In this document: in pieces, positions 29,034 through 35,239 of the stretch
How positions within the stretch are numbered: position 1 is the stretch's first letter
Layout: each line of letters opens with the position of its first letter
Source: a virus
Length of the DNA stretch: 37,320 nt
Virus record (IMG/VR): IMGVR_UViG_3300037193_001295
Location: 1-37,320 of that record
Direction: 5' to 3' (one strand)
Notes under the pieces: generated by a model
Database searches by the model: none
Seen by the model: only the letters and a program-made list of their open reading frames with translations
Told to the model about the DNA's origin: nothing
Position numbers and translations under genes: made by a program

Positions 29034-30773
29034 TTAGACGACGCTGAGGCCGTCGTCTTCGTATGCGGATCGGCGGGGCGGTACCGCGTGGCTGGCCCGA
29101 GCGACCGCCATGATCAGCGCGACGACGGCGTCGATCTTCTCGCCAGCGCTGGCCTTGTCGGGCTTCACGTTGCCCGCGGGGTCCATCGCGACGGCGAGGT
29201 TGTCGATCTGCCATCGGACGCAGGGGTTACCGCCGTGCCGGGTGATCGGGTGCTCGGGTGTGCCTTCCAGGACGAGCCGCTGTAGCTCCTTGGTCGGGCC
29301 GCTCATCGAGGCGTAGCCCTGGCGCATGCTGACCATGGGGGCGCCGTCGTTCGTCAGGTCCGTGACGAGCGAGAGGGCGTTCCACGGGTCGTAGGCGATC
29401 TCGGCGACCTCGAACTCGTCCATGTCGCGGATGATCTGGGCGCGGATGAAGTCGTAGTCGGTGACGTTGCCCGGCGTGGTGATCAGCCAGCCCTCGCGCT
29501 CCCACACGGTCGCGGCACCGGCGGTGCGCCGGTCGAGGTTGCGCAGGTTCGCCTCCGGCGTCCAGATCCGCCAGAGCAGATCCAAACCTCCGCGCTCGTC
29601 GTCGGGCAGCGCCCAGCACAACGCGGTCAGGTCGCTGGTGGAGGCGAGGTCCAGACCGCCGTAGGCGCGGCGCCCGTGTAGCTCGTGCTCGACGACGATC
29701 CCGGCGTTGGCGTCCCACGGCGCCAGCTCGATGAACTTCGTTTCCTGCTTCGTGCGGATGCCGAGATGCAGCCTCAAGTACTTCGCCAGGTCCGCCGGTG
29801 ACTGCTTCGCCTCCTCGGCGGCCTTGCGCAGGTACCGGCGCGTCGGGGAGATCCCGAAGCCCGGGTTGGCCTTGCGCTGCGTGGCCTCCGAGTACGGGTC
29901 GTCCTCGCGGGTCGCGCACCACACGACGCCGTAGGTGGTCTCGTCGGTCAGCGCGCCGCGGGCGAGTTGCTCGACCCGCATCCGCTTCCGGTCGTAGATC
30001 GTGTGCCGCTTCCCGGAGTCCGCGGTCGTGATGATCACGACGAGGGGCTGTCGGCGGGACCCGGTGCCGGTCTCGATCGTCTCGACGAGATCGGGTGTCT
30101 TGTGCACGTGCAGCTCGTCGACGATGGCGCCGTGGATGTTCGCCCCGTGCTGGGCGTCGGCCACGCTGGAGACGACCTCGATGTAGCTGCCCGAGCGCGG
30201 GTGGATCACGCGCTTCATGACGGTCTTGACGTGCGGCTGGAGCGCGGGCGAGCGCTCGGCGAGTTGCTTGATCGGGTTGAACACGAACCCTGCTTGCTTC
30301 TCGCTGGTGGCCGCGGTGACCACCTGGGCGCCCGCCTCCCCGTCGGCGCAGGCGAGGTACATCGCGATCCCGCCCGAGAGCGTGGACTTCCCGTTCTTGC
30401 GCGGGACGTCCACGTACAGGCTGGTGATGATCCGGCAGTAGTCCTCGGCGTCGTCGTCCCAGCGCACCCACCCGAAGACCGGGGCGAGCACGTAGGCGAC
30501 CTGCCACGGGTCCGGGGTGAGTGGGCGGCCCGCCCACTGGCCCTGTGTGTGGCGCAGGAGCTTGAACGCTTTGATCACCCGGTCGACCCGGTGCGCGTCG
30601 AACCGTGCCCCCGGCACGTCCCGCGGTTCCGGCGTCTTGATCGCTGGTGGGCAGTCGGGCAGCGCGATGCCCCGGCTCACCAGGTACCAGGCGACCTCCG
30701 GTGAGAGCCGCAGACGCTCCAGCTCCGCGGCGTCGGGCAGCTCAGGAGCCGGTACCGGCGAACGGGTTGTCAT
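29034..30773 (-). CDS. terL: Terminase large subunit
   Basis: 579 residues, the motor and nuclease for DNA packaging. Walker A is VPRKNGKST (residues 123-131), Walker B is GAIVDE with Asp219-Glu220. The RNase H-like nuclease has candidate metal-binding acids Asp375 (GGLDLAS), Asp462 (AYDPWNA) and Asp548 (EKIDAVVALIMA). The start lies 32 nt inside the terS gene, so the two are coupled. Length and motifs are normal for the family. Confidence 0.95.
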   Translation of the reverse strand: MTTRSPVPAPELPDAAELERLRLSPEVAWYLVSRGIALPDCPPAIKTPEPRDVPGARFDAHRVDRVIKAFKLLRHTQGQWAGRPLTPDPWQVAYVLAPVFGWVRWDDDAEDYCRIITSLYVDVPRKNGKSTLSGGIAMYLACADGEAGAQVVTAATSEKQAGFVFNPIKQLAERSPALQPHVKTVMKRVIHPRSGSYIEVVSSVADAQHGANIHGAIVDELHVHKTPDLVETIETGTGSRRQPLVVIITTADSGKRHTIYDRKRMRVEQLARGALTDETTYGVVWCATREDDPYSEATQRKANPGFGISPTRRYLRKAAEEAKQSPADLAKYLRLHLGIRTKQETKFIELAPWDANAGIVVEHELHGRRAYGGLDLASTSDLTALCWALPDDERGGLDLLWRIWTPEANLRNLDRRTAGAATVWEREGWLITTPGNVTDYDFIRAQIIRDMDEFEVAEIAYDPWNALSLVTDLTNDGAPMVSMRQGYASMSGPTKELQRLVLEGTPEHPITRHGGNPCVRWQIDNLAVAMDPAGNVKPDKASAGEKIDAVVALIMAVARASHAVPPRRSAYEDDGLSVV

Positions 30774-31209
30774 CGACGCCCCCGCTGGCGTCGGCGGCCC
30801 GGATCGAGCTGCGCGCGCTCGGGGTCAGGCCGAACTCCTGCGCGAACGAGCGGATCGTGTTCGCGGCGTCCCGCTGGATCTGGAGCGCAGGGTTGCGCAC
30901 CAGGTTGCCGTGGATGCCCTTCACCAGCACCGAGGAGCGCTTGAGCACCTCGCAGGCGCGCCGGTGCGTCACCACGGCCTCGCAGTAGCAACGCAGGGCA
31001 TCCGAGTCCGACGGGAACGCGAGGTTCATCGCCTCCAGCTCGCGCACCACGCGGCGCCACACGGCGAGCACCTCGGGGCCGGCGTCGGCGGGCTCGACCA
31101 TCTCCGCGGGGCGCGGCTGCGGCTCGTCGTTGTTGATCCGGTCCTGGTGCCGCTCGCCCGAGAGGAGCTTGAGCACGGTCGGGCGTTGCGCGGGGCCTCG
31201 CTTACCCAC
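30742..31209 (-). CDS. terS: Terminase small subunit, P27 family
   Basis: 155 residues, beginning with the P27-type GKRGPAQRPTVLKLLSGERH, which binds the packaging site, and with helices rich in Arg (AVWRRVVRELEAMNLAF, CEAVVTHRRACEVL). GTG at 31209 with AGGAG six bases upstream. The start overlaps the end of folE by 8 nt and the stop overlaps terL, tying packaging to the modification operon. Confidence 0.9.
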   Translation of the reverse strand: MGKRGPAQRPTVLKLLSGERHQDRINNDEPQPRPAEMVEPADAGPEVLAVWRRVVRELEAMNLAFPSDSDALRCYCEAVVTHRRACEVLKRSSVLVKGIHGNLVRNPALQIQRDAANTIRSFAQEFGLTPSARSSIRAADASGGVDDNPFAGTGS

Positions 31210-31783
31210 GGCGGTCTCCTCTCCGGTGCTCTGCCAGCACGGTCTGAACGTTCGGGTCCTCGGGGGTCAGCTCCCACGCGCCGGTGAGCGCGACCGTGGT
31301 CGTCACGACCTCGTCCTGCTCTACCCCGCGCAGGCTGATGCACCCGTGCTCGGCGGTGATCACGCAGGCGGCGCCGACCGGGCGGAGGATCTCCTGCACG
31401 GTGCTGGCGGTCTGCCAGCCGAGCCGCTCCTGGACCTGGAGGCGGGCGGCGTAGTCGCCCAGCACGCGGGCCAGCTTGGACAGACCGACGATCTTCTCGC
31501 CGGGGAACGGCCGGTACGCGACCGTCGCCCACCCCGTGATCGGCAGGAGGTGGTGGGCGCACGTCGAGCGCACCCTGATCCCCGACAGCACCACCAGGCC
31601 CGGATTCGGAGGGGCGGTGAAGGTGCGCTCGAGGTGCCGTGCCGGGTCGAGGTCGTACCCGGCGAGCGCGGCGGTCCAGGCGCGGGCGACGCGGTCCGGG
31701 GTGTTGGCGGTGTGGTCGCCCTCGTCGACGCCCAGCGCGGTCAGGAGGTCTCGGACCGCCGTGGCGGCCTTCTCGACGTCCAT
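31202..31783 (-). CDS. folE: GTP cyclohydrolase I
   Basis: FolE opens GTP to dihydroneopterin triphosphate, the first step of both folate and 7-deazaguanine synthesis. 193 residues with the zinc ligands Cys75, His78 (RSTCAHHLLPI) and Cys148 (TAEHGC), and the motifs KIVGLSKLARVL and RLQVQERLGWQTA of the active site. ATG at 31783 overlaps the queE stop (TGATG) and AAGGGG lies eight bases upstream. Its neighbours show that the role is preQ0 rather than folate. The stop overlaps terS. Confidence 0.95.
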   Translation of the reverse strand: MDVEKAATAVRDLLTALGVDEGDHTANTPDRVARAWTAALAGYDLDPARHLERTFTAPPNPGLVVLSGIRVRSTCAHHLLPITGWATVAYRPFPGEKIVGLSKLARVLGDYAARLQVQERLGWQTASTVQEILRPVGAACVITAEHGCISLRGVEQDEVVTTTVALTGAWELTPEDPNVQTVLAEHRRGDRRG

Positions 31784-32538
31784 CAGCGGCCCCTTCCGTC
31801 GCCCCACGCCAGGACGTGCAGGCGGTGCGTGGCGTTGACGCCGTGGTGGGCTGCCGCGTCGGCGATCTCGGGCCAGATCAGGGCGAGGTCGTCGGCGGTG
31901 GTGCCCTCCGGCATCACGTACGTGCGCTCCAGCGGGATGCGCATCTGGTCGGCCAGCTCGATGGCGCGTTCGACGTCGCCCGCGTCGCGGCAGACGACCT
32001 TGAGGTGGACCTGCGGCCAGCTCTTGAGCGCCGGTGCCGGGGTCGGGTCCTGGTGCCCGCGGTGTGGACCGGCGTGCGGGAGCTTCGGCGAGACGATGAT
32101 CGCCCGGGAGTACGCCAGGGTGGTGGGCGAGGGATTGATGGTCCCGTTCGTCTCGATGTGCACCGGTAGGTCGTTCAGGACGAGGATCTTCAGGAGCCGC
32201 TCGAACGCGGGGCGGTCCTGGTGCAGGAGCGGCTCGCCGCCGGTGATGACCACGATCCCCGCGCGGTGCTCGACCAACTCCCCGGCGAGGCTGTCCGCGG
32301 TCCGGTGGGTGGTCTCGGCGCGCAGGTTGTACCGGCTCGCGTCCCAGGTGTAGGCACTGTCGCACCAGGAGCACGAGAGGTTGCACCCCATGAGCCGGAC
32401 GAAGCTGGCGGGGCGGCCGGCGGCCGGTCCCTCGCCTTGGATGGTGCGGTGGAACACCTCGGAGATCGGGAGGGTGTCGGTGATCTCCGGTGGGGTGCTC
32501 TCGCGGCGAGCCGCCTCGGCCTGGTGGGGGGCGCTCAC
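31783..32538 (-). CDS. queE: 7-carboxy-7-deazaguanine synthase
   Basis: A radical-SAM enzyme that contracts 6-carboxytetrahydropterin to 7-carboxy-7-deazaguanine. 251 residues with the Cx3Cx2C cluster site typical of the family: Cys52, Cys56, Cys59 (RLMGCNLSCSWCD), preceded by TIQGEGPAAGRPASFVR, which is characteristic of QueE, and ITGGEPLLH at 98-106 (the SAM-binding GGE). GTG start overlaps the queD stop (GTGA). Full length, no missing residues. Confidence 0.95.
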   Translation of the reverse strand: MSAPHQAEAARRESTPPEITDTLPISEVFHRTIQGEGPAAGRPASFVRLMGCNLSCSWCDSAYTWDASRYNLRAETTHRTADSLAGELVEHRAGIVVITGGEPLLHQDRPAFERLLKILVLNDLPVHIETNGTINPSPTTLAYSRAIIVSPKLPHAGPHRGHQDPTPAPALKSWPQVHLKVVCRDAGDVERAIELADQMRIPLERTYVMPEGTTADDLALIWPEIADAAAHHGVNATHRLHVLAWGDGRGR

Positions 32539-32954
32539 AGCGGCACGATCCGGGCGCTCGCGCTGTTGACGTGGGTCTCGTGGACGTCGACCCGTGCGGC
32601 GATCGGCCCGAACTCGCCCTGTGCCCAGCCGAGGACCCATCGGGCGATGTTCTCCGTGGTCGGATCGCCGTCGCACACGTACGTGCCGGGCAGGTCGAGA
32701 TCGCACAGCCGGTCCGACGCGTTGAGCAGGAGGCGATGGTCGTAGCTGCGGTCCAGGTGCTCGCGGAAGGCGCGCTTCACCTGCCCGAAGTCCAGGCCGT
32801 TGGACAGCCCCCGCTCGTCGGGGCCGCCGGTGATCTCCAGCTCGACCCACATCGAGTGCCCGTGGATGTTCTCGCACTTGCCGGGCAGCAGGGACAGCCG
32901 GTGGGCGACTTCGATGTTGTGCCGGACCCGGATCGACCCGCCGGTGATCTTCAC
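32535..32954 (-). CDS. queD: 6-carboxytetrahydropterin synthase
   Basis: QueD converts dihydroneopterin triphosphate to 6-carboxytetrahydropterin. 139 residues with zinc ligands His18 (EVAHRLS), His31 and His33 (HGHS), catalytic Cys27 (GKCENIHGH), Asp72-His73 (SYDHRLLLN), and the TTENIARW and Glu126 (VHETH) elements of the family. GTG start overlaps the queC stop (GTGA). Confidence 0.94.
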   Translation of the reverse strand: MKITGGSIRVRHNIEVAHRLSLLPGKCENIHGHSMWVELEITGGPDERGLSNGLDFGQVKRAFREHLDRSYDHRLLLNASDRLCDLDLPGTYVCDGDPTTENIARWVLGWAQGEFGPIAARVDVHETHVNSASARIVPL

Positions 32955-33613
32955 GCGTCGGTCCGGTACGGGGTCGGGTCGGTGACGCCTGCGTCGCGCA
33001 TCGCCTCGATCCGCTCGACGCATGTCCCGCACTCGCCGCAGTGGACGTCGTTGCCCTCGTAGCACGACCACGTGAGCTGGATCGGCACGCCGAGCTCGTC
33101 GGCGTGGCGGGCGATGTCGGTCTTCGTCCAGTGGACGAACGGGGCCGCGATCATCGCGTGGCCGTCGGTGGCGGCGATGACCGTCTGGCTTGCCAGCTCG
33201 ATGAACTCCGGGCGGCAGTCCGGGTAGATCGGGTGGTCGCCTGCGTGCACGGCGGTGAGCACCTGGTCGCAGCCGAAGGAGATCGCGACCCCGCACGCCG
33301 CCATGAGCAGGGTGGCGTTGCGGTTGGGGACGATGGTCGCCTTCATGGACTCGTCCGCGTAGTGCCCGTGCGGCACCTCGACGGAGCGGTCGGTGAGCGC
33401 GGAGCCGGTGAGCAGGCGCCCCCACCCGCGCAAGTCCAGGATCTCGTGCTGGATCGCGTAGAACTCGGCGATGTCGAGCGCGGCGGACATCTCCCGGATG
33501 TGGCGCTGGCCGTAGTCGACCGAGAGCGCGACCTTCGCGGTACTGGCGGCGACGCGGTCGGCGAGCAGCGTGGTCGAGTCCAGGCCGCCGGAGAGCAGGA
33601 CGAGATCAGGCAT
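32951..33613 (-). CDS. queC: 7-cyano-7-deazaguanine (preQ0) synthase
   Basis: QueC uses ATP and ammonia to turn 7-carboxy-7-deazaguanine into preQ0. 220 residues with the pyrophosphatase loop SGGLDST (8-14), DYGQRH, VPNRNATLL and the C-terminal zinc site Cys184, Cys192, Cys195, Cys198 (HCGECGTC). ATG at 33613 has GAGGAA upstream and overlaps the dpdA gene by 8 nt. No amidotransferase domain of the Gat-QueC type is attached. Ends PTPY..., as usual for the family. Confidence 0.95.
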   Translation of the reverse strand: MPDLVLLSGGLDSTTLLADRVAASTAKVALSVDYGQRHIREMSAALDIAEFYAIQHEILDLRGWGRLLTGSALTDRSVEVPHGHYADESMKATIVPNRNATLLMAACGVAISFGCDQVLTAVHAGDHPIYPDCRPEFIELASQTVIAATDGHAMIAAPFVHWTKTDIARHADELGVPIQLTWSCYEGNDVHCGECGTCVERIEAMRDAGVTDPTPYRTDA

Positions 33614-34655
33614 GGGCGTGTTCCTCGGGTGTGGTTTCGGGTGCGGTGGCGCGGCACCGGTGGTGGGCGCTGTAGACGCGCCACACGGACGGCACGCTCT
33701 GCCCGGTGTGGAGAGCACGGTCCAGCTCCGCAATGGGCTCTACGCCGAAGCTGGGCGTGATTGCCGCGTACAGGTGCGGGCCGTGCAGCCGCGCGTCGAG
33801 CTGTGAGAGCGCCGGTAGGTCCGTGGTCGTGGTCGCGTTGAAGTAGTGCGGGCCGGGGTCGGTGGCGCCGTGGGCGATCCCGGGGTGCGGGGCCGGTACG
33901 ACGGCGCGGCGCTTGAGCCACTCGTCGGCGACGGCGAACGCGAGGCCCATGGACTGGATCAGCGCGGCCCGCCCGGAGCTGGCCCCGGGGAGCCGGCCGG
34001 CGCGCACCAGCGGGCCGAGGTCGATCCCGTGGCCGCGGATGAGCTTCGCGTCGCGCAGCATCTTCGCCCGGTCCGCTGGCTTGTTCGGGTAGACGGCGAC
34101 GACGTCCTTGCCGTTGAAGTAGATGACCTTCCCGAACTGGAAGGCGCCCGACACGGTCGAGGAGTCCGAGCTGTAGGGCATGGCGTCGCGCAGCACCGCC
34201 ACCGAGCCGATGCCGAGCGCGTGGATTCCGCCGCCCTGGTCCTGGGCGCGGCGCTGGAGCATCTTCACGCGGGCTTTCTGAGCCGGGACCGGGAGACCGA
34301 CCAGGCCGCCGACGCACACGTAGCCGTTCTCCTGGACCATCGCGTCGAACTCGCGCAGCTTGTCGCCGCGGGTGAAGACCGGCATGACCGGCAGGCCCTT
34401 TGCGTGGAGTTTGCGCGTGTTCTTCGCGGTTTCCCGGCCGTTGCCGATGACGTCGAGGGTGACCGCGTGGTCCCAGCAGCCCCGCCAGGTCTCCAGGTAC
34501 TCGGCGTACGCGTCGAGGGAGATCGGGCGGCCCTTGGACCAGGCGGTGAACGCGCCGGAGTCGATGAGCAGGCGCCCGCAGACGAGCCGGTTCCGGACCT
34601 GCCGGAGGTTCGTGTCGGCGTGGAAGGCGTAGCTCAGCAGGAGGTTGACCGACAT
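33606..34655 (-). CDS. dpdA: DpdA-like DNA 7-deazaguanine transglycosylase
   Basis: 349 residues. DpdA proteins are relatives of tRNA-guanine transglycosylase that swap guanine in DNA for a 7-deazaguanine. Visible TGT-like features are IDSGAF (Asp32), TLDVIGN (Asp68), CVGGLVG (114-120), HALGIG (145-150) and PYSSDSST (Asp164 region), which match the DpdA pattern of DSGAF, GG-x-x-G, H-x-LG and S-x-DS; Asp32 and Asp164 are candidates for the catalytic pair. No typical four-Cys/His zinc site of bacterial TGT is obvious. ATG overlaps the parB stop (TGATG). Its place beside the preQ0 genes makes the function likely; the subfamily is not certain. Confidence 0.85.
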   Translation of the reverse strand: MSVNLLLSYAFHADTNLRQVRNRLVCGRLLIDSGAFTAWSKGRPISLDAYAEYLETWRGCWDHAVTLDVIGNGRETAKNTRKLHAKGLPVMPVFTRGDKLREFDAMVQENGYVCVGGLVGLPVPAQKARVKMLQRRAQDQGGGIHALGIGSVAVLRDAMPYSSDSSTVSGAFQFGKVIYFNGKDVVAVYPNKPADRAKMLRDAKLIRGHGIDLGPLVRAGRLPGASSGRAALIQSMGLAFAVADEWLKRRAVVPAPHPGIAHGATDPGPHYFNATTTTDLPALSQLDARLHGPHLYAAITPSFGVEPIAELDRALHTGQSVPSVWRVYSAHHRCRATAPETTPEEHAHA

Positions 34656-35239
34656 CAGTCGTCCAGCCCGATCCGGGAGAGCGCGTTCTCGACGCGCTCG
34701 CGGTCGTCGTGGCCGTCGAGCTGGCACCAGAGCGCGTGGACCTCGGGGGGTACCTGGCACTTGATCTGCGGCCAGCCCGCGCGGTCGGTGTCGGCGAGCA
34801 CGTCTTCGTCCTCGACCGGGTCGCCGCCCTGGCTCTCCAGCAGCGCGACGAGCGCGTCGAGATCGCCCGGGTCGTAGCCGGTGCCGTCGAGATCCGGGAG
34901 GTCGGTGAGCAACTCGGCGAGGATGCGTTCGTCGTAGCTGCCGAGATCGGCGGTGCGGTTGTCCGCGGCCACGATCCGGGCGCACTGGTCGTCGTCGACG
35001 TCCACCCAGACGACCGCGGCCTCGCCCATGCCCTCCTCGCGGGCCGCCATGAGGGTGTGGTTCCCGGCGAGCACCTCCCTCTCGCGCCCGGTGTGTGTGC
35101 CGCGGTTGACCACCAGGGGGCGGTACTGGCCGTTCACGCGCAGGGAGCGGGCGATGGCGTGCACGTCGCCCTGGCGGGGGTTGCGGTGGTACGTGCGCAG
35201 GTCTTTCACCGGCACGTACTCGAACTCCAGCTCGCTCAC
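34655..35239 (-). CDS. ParB-like protein
   Basis: 194 residues with the ParB/Srx N-terminal domain: VPVKDLRTYHRNPRQGD, HAIARSLRVNGQYRPLVVN, EVLAGNHTLMAAREEG and VDVDDDQCARIVAADNRTAD. The GNHT-type motif takes the place of the GERR/GxHR nucleotide-binding box. The C-terminal third is acidic. Phage ParB-like proteins have been described as nucleases or DNA-binding adaptors. Coupled to dpdA by TGATG and to its upstream gene by GTGA, it may help place DpdA on DNA or act on modified DNA; this is inference. Confidence 0.85.
   Translation of the reverse strand: MSELEFEYVPVKDLRTYHRNPRQGDVHAIARSLRVNGQYRPLVVNRGTHTGREREVLAGNHTLMAAREEGMGEAAVVWVDVDDDQCARIVAADNRTADLGSYDERILAELLTDLPDLDGTGYDPGDLDALVALLESQGGDPVEDEDVLADTDRAGWPQIKCQVPPEVHALWCQLDGHDDRERVENALSRIGLDD

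Follow-up and report, generated by a model that had tools for sequence, protein, structure and literature searches.

A probable phage cassette for dPreQ0 DNA modification, with a ParB-fold gene at its head and the terminase genes at its foot

Does a phage that carries genes for 7-deazaguanine synthesis place the modified base in its own DNA, or does it serve the tRNA of its host? This question is raised by an IMG/VR virus record, a linear contig of 37,320 bases with a GC content of 70% (the whole of which we call the window), for which an earlier note made from the sequence had proposed a complete preQ0 pathway together with DpdA. On our analysis, the cassette is very probably a self-contained phage dPreQ0 DNA-modification operon, with its chemistry assigned by homology. 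The record derives from a tailed phage as judged by PHROG matches (terminase, portal, head, tail and tape-measure proteins, plus an endolysin), and its Lsr2-like gene (866-1450) points to an actinobacterial host, such that dPreQ0 phages would gain one uncultivated actinophage lineage. No end repeats were found on the 37,320-base record, and the contig may be incomplete.

Five overlapping open reading frames occupy 31202-34655 on the minus strand, and from the upstream end these encode DpdA, a predicted DNA-guanine transglycosylase of 349 aa (33606-34655; phrog_887, 3.5e-32); QueC, a 7-cyano-7-deazaguanine synthase of 220 aa without a GAT domain (32951-33613; Pfam QueC, PF06508, 4.9e-57; NCBIfam TIGR00364, 172.5 bits against a cut-off of 150.3); QueD, a 6-carboxytetrahydropterin synthase of 139 aa with a GTG start (32535-32954; Pfam PTPS, PF01242, 1e-23; TIGR03367, 1.1e-18); QueE, a radical SAM 7-carboxy-7-deazaguanine synthase of 251 aa, also with a GTG start (31783-32538; PHROG QueE, phrog_2076, 1.2e-64; TIGR03365, 2e-26; Pfam Radical_SAM, 4.9e-11); and FolE, a GTP cyclohydrolase I of 193 aa (31202-31783; Pfam GTP_cyclohydroI, PF01227, 9.8e-50). 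The five genes that the earlier note had called are thus real and lie exactly within its interval, and its overlapping chain holds for them but not in its extent, as the chain also takes in three further minus-strand genes. At the upstream end, the TGA of a gene for a ParB/Srx-fold protein of 194 aa (34655-35239; GTG start; phrog_723, 2.1e-50), conserved yet overlooked in the original gene set, overlaps the dpdA ATG, and at the downstream end the small terminase subunit gene terS (30742-31209; TIGR01558, 74.8 bits, cut-off 45.6) overlaps folE and is itself overlapped by the large subunit gene terL (29034-30773; phrog_9, 7.6e-144). No preQ1 riboswitch was recognised, with no Rfam match.

Aligned with their E. 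coli counterparts, the four pathway enzymes match at catalytic and metal-binding positions, as had been read from the sequence: FolE keeps STCxHH...H.C with its zinc ligands intact, QueE keeps CxxxCxxC and TGGEP, QueD keeps CxxxHGH, and QueC keeps SGGxDS, YGQRHxxE, VPxRN, YPDC and C..CxxCxxC. Residues in the QueC motifs YxQxHxxE, VPxRN and YPDC are essential by mutagenesis (PMC13329287). The window therefore holds the complete FolE, QueD, QueE and QueC set found in the phage dPreQ0 group (Hutinet et al. 2019), and it is fair to suppose that the phage would not depend on a host pathway.

By themselves, these four enzymes would also suit an auxiliary metabolism that raises the level of queuosine, or of some other 7-deazaguanine, in the tRNA of the host, with phage DNA not the target, and Hutinet et al. 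raised a tRNA role for phages without DpdA (PMC6884629). Here, however, a linked DpdA is present, QueF and TGT have no match on the contig, and QueA, QueG and QueH are absent from the viruses analysed in PMC6884629. The 349-aa protein itself matches DNA-acting DpdA and not the Pfam TGT model (PF01702); it has no Pfam or NCBIfam match, and its PHROG matches (phrog_887 and, at 3.4e-19, phrog_7068) are both annotated 'queuine tRNA-ribosyltransferase'. With a profile of nine sequences, hhalign aligned it to the DpdA of Mycobacterium phage Arbiter over its full length (8.5e-74) and to the DpdA of Escherichia phage CAjan over the catalytic half (1.3e-27). The residues D32, D68, H145 and D164 are kept across the phage DpdA proteins compared (excluding the first DpdA copy of contig L014), with H145 corresponding to CAjan H187 and, we infer, to the conserved His 196 of PMC6884629. 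Against E. coli Tgt the sole aligned motif was DSG(A/G)F, and the TGT zinc motif CxCxxC is absent from the window and CAjan DpdA proteins alike. An AF2 model of low confidence (pLDDT 63) had a TGT as its top, though weak, PDB match (E 3.8e-3) among many TIM barrels, and its best matches in a viral structure library were other phage DpdA proteins. Judged by sequence, the protein belongs to phage DpdA, and the comparison with DpdA families that the earlier note had called for places it inside TGT/DpdA, in keeping with the DpdA-like transglycosylase that had been proposed. We accordingly regard the tRNA role as very improbable. Searching PDB sequences with the DpdA profile returned only matches to a 46-residue stretch of coronavirus spike, which we rejected as chance; plasmids yielded no DpdA match, and an alignment of six DpdA sequences proved too divergent to scan a collection with.

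As to what the dPreQ0 operon would do, FolE, QueD, QueE and QueC are expected to convert GTP by way of H2NTP, CPH4 and CDG to preQ0, after which DpdA, as a DNA-acting TGT homologue, would swap a fraction of guanines for preQ0 in replicated phage DNA, the base exchange being the reaction assigned to DpdA. The modified virion DNA would then withstand restriction enzymes with G in their site, and the adjacent ParB-fold protein would most likely aid DpdA in engaging DNA. Because the cassette is contiguous with terS and terL, modification probably continues up to packaging. The genes are identified, their active sites are intact, their order is conserved, and they are homologous to experimentally proven systems; for the window phage we infer, by analogy with those systems, both the modification chemistry and the restriction resistance of virion DNA.

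Among those systems, Rosebush, which has the same genes as the window, carries about 28% of the G in its virion DNA as dPreQ0 and shows resistance to BamHI, EcoRV and NdeI, while CAjan carries dPreQ0 at 32% of G and loses both modification and restriction resistance upon dpdA deletion (PMC6884629). The Rosebush cassette thus bears out the earlier statement that known phage relatives have 7-deazaguanine DNA and resist restriction, and the gene set shared with a phage of measured dPreQ0, together with DpdA homology, supports a probable 7-deazaguanine modification here. Arbiter belongs to the species Rosebushvirus rosebush according to NCBI, and its record stands in for Rosebush in our comparisons. 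It shares with the window the order ParB-DpdA-QueC-QueD-QueE-FolE-terminase, a DpdA homologous over the full length and a QueC about 55% identical; its DpdA, in contrast, is 28% identical (BLASTP), and in the window a separate terS gene stands between folE and terL, unlike in the Rosebush system. This gene order recurs in PenguinLover67, Sour, Finch and Sonali as well as in viral contigs. CAjan has the same five enzymes, aligned DpdA motifs and the same predicted product, but differs in gene order, in having no ParB annotated beside dpdA, and in a putative preQ0 transporter within its cluster. The window system is therefore of a known kind, the phage dPreQ0 cassette. In Mycobacterium phage Bipper, where QueC is missing and a carboxy-deazaguanine product is possible (Hutinet et al., PMC6884629), a protein of 141 aa that has no Pfam match lies between dpdA and queD (L002:2047-2469).

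We predict dPreQ0 as the end product, by analogy, because no QueF, TGT or Gat-QueC was matched on the contig and the Rosebush and CAjan gene sets are alike. A different 7-deazaguanine (dADG, dG+ or dCDG), made through an off-contig enzyme or a relaxed DpdA specificity, is unlikely: QueC is canonical in the window, no tailoring enzyme was recognised, and almost all of the modified base in Rosebush and CAjan, whose gene set is the same, is dPreQ0 (PMC6884629). In its favour, several derivatives occur in phage nt-1 DNA (PMC6884629), QueC was not found in the sequence examined of three close relatives (L012, L013 and L032), and the linear contig may be partial, so that the product could be altered by a tailoring enzyme, DpdC- or ArcS-like for instance, encoded outside it. 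Site choice may also differ, given that the window DpdA and the Rosebush-species enzyme share only about 28% identity. Mycobacterium phage Orion, which has DpdA and unmodified DNA (PMC6884629), offers a precedent for a cassette that is present yet inactive, but Orion lacks the preQ0 genes that the window has. With every cassette gene in the window open and overlapping, active-site residues conserved and gene order kept in divergent relatives, an inactive cassette with unmodified DNA is scarcely to be expected.

Beyond the dPreQ0 cassette itself, the ParB-fold gene and the relatives in which QueC is replaced are what this locus adds. The ParB-fold protein gave a model of pLDDT 89 (AF2) whose best PDB matches were CTP- or CDP-bound ParB proteins (8.9e-08), and Arbiter gp1, annotated 'transcriptional regulator', is of the same ParB subfamily (hhalign 5.8e-48). 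Modelled in this way, it is possibly a DpdB-like accessory that forms the conserved first gene of the cassette, a role earlier proposed for phage CRB2 ORF1 (PMC6392294). Bacterial Dpd restriction-modification likewise combines a TGT-like DpdA with a ParB-superfamily partner, the ParB-like ATPase DpdB (PMC12839542), a likeness drawn by description; it differs in DpdC, for which the cassette proteins scanned gave no convincing match (E 0.013, on QueE).

To place this gene in a broader context, we gathered 80 viral loci with the window ParB subfamily, reduced to 54 non-redundant loci (among L026-L105), and assigned neighbouring module classes on a Pfam basis. A putative DNA-modifying enzyme was fused to ParB or lay within 2.5 kb downstream in 47 of the 54, a count that is partly circular because the reference proteins came from the same neighbourhoods, so that the useful part is the positional contrast: no such enzyme was found in the other 316 kb of these loci. 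The modules were TET/JBP (11), N6/N4 methylase (10), ParB-fused Methyltransf_23 (8), DpdA (7), PAPS-reductase-like (4), AAA-GNAT (3), C5 methylase (2) and Mom (2), the PAPS, GNAT and Methyltransf_23 groups being only presumed to modify DNA. The putative enzymes beside or fused to this ParB represent at least five chemistries: TET/JBP, the N6/N4 and C5 methylases, Mom and DpdA. On the ParB tree, most of whose branches are weakly supported, module type switches many times: nine labels require 23 changes, compared with 38.9 when shuffled. Association of ParB with methyltransferases has been described, including ParBc domains, themselves of unknown function, fused to DNA methyltransferases (PMC12783734), and ParB is also part of a thymine hypermodification cassette (PMC11955845). 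The AAA-GNAT group consists of an AAA-type NTPase fused to a GNAT protein adjoining ParB (L041:878-1975, L058:6683-7834, L063:6531-7667), possibly a putative Mom-like modification enzyme. A 773-aa reading frame (L034:5565-7883) combines weak ParB and N6/N4 methylase matches with a pyridoxal-phosphate (PALP) domain.

From these patterns, we tentatively propose, with more doubt than confidence, that ParB is a general actinophage DNA-modification clamp or loader for unrelated enzymes, constant beside swapped modules, and that the window DpdA needs it for full activity. A general requirement is made doubtful by phage 9g, whose DpdA and Gat-QueC modify plasmid DNA in E. coli with no other phage genes (PMC6884629), and by CAjan, with no ParB annotated near dpdA. 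If ParB were a common loader, this would be directly testable in a DpdA phage, with one ParB gene to delete and a quantitative LC-MS readout.

Among phages with a window-like TerS or TerL, ParB is constant and the neighbouring module is exchanged: DpdA with QueCDE in the window and L107, DpdA with a methyltransferase and without QueC in L012 and L013, a C5 methylase in L028/L035, an AAA-GNAT protein in L058, and ParB fused to an N6/N4 methylase in L074 and L103. The dPreQ0 cassette would thus occupy an exchangeable slot beside the terminase, with the ParB-fold protein as its constant element. In L012 and L013, whose DpdA, TerS and TerL are about 55-66% identical to those of the window, a class I SAM methyltransferase stands at the QueC position (L012:1897-2682 and L013:1931-2707; 71% identical to each other), and QueC has no match on either contig (12.6 and 25.4 kb). 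This replacement points to a possibly different deazaguanine product from that of the window. No relative of this methyltransferase turned up in phage records, and it shows no recognisable relationship to the methyltransferase that accompanies the C5 methylase in L028. L032, with the TerS most similar to that of the window (80% identical), encodes ParB, a divergent DpdA-like protein (1634-2638), a 160-aa reading frame, QueD, QueE and FolE, with no QueC match within the 6.7 kb read. Two tandem DpdA genes of different types lie between the ParB-like gene and QueC in L014 and L015, the first copy of the pair having SGAFSA, LDVIGD, HGLGL and VDSS motifs. L107, a contig of a Pseudonocardiaceae MAG in which TGT was not found, has the same cassette and terminase as the window, and its TerL of 923 aa (L107:12245-15016) carries an intein-like insertion after KNGK that ends in ...HN before TTLAGG.
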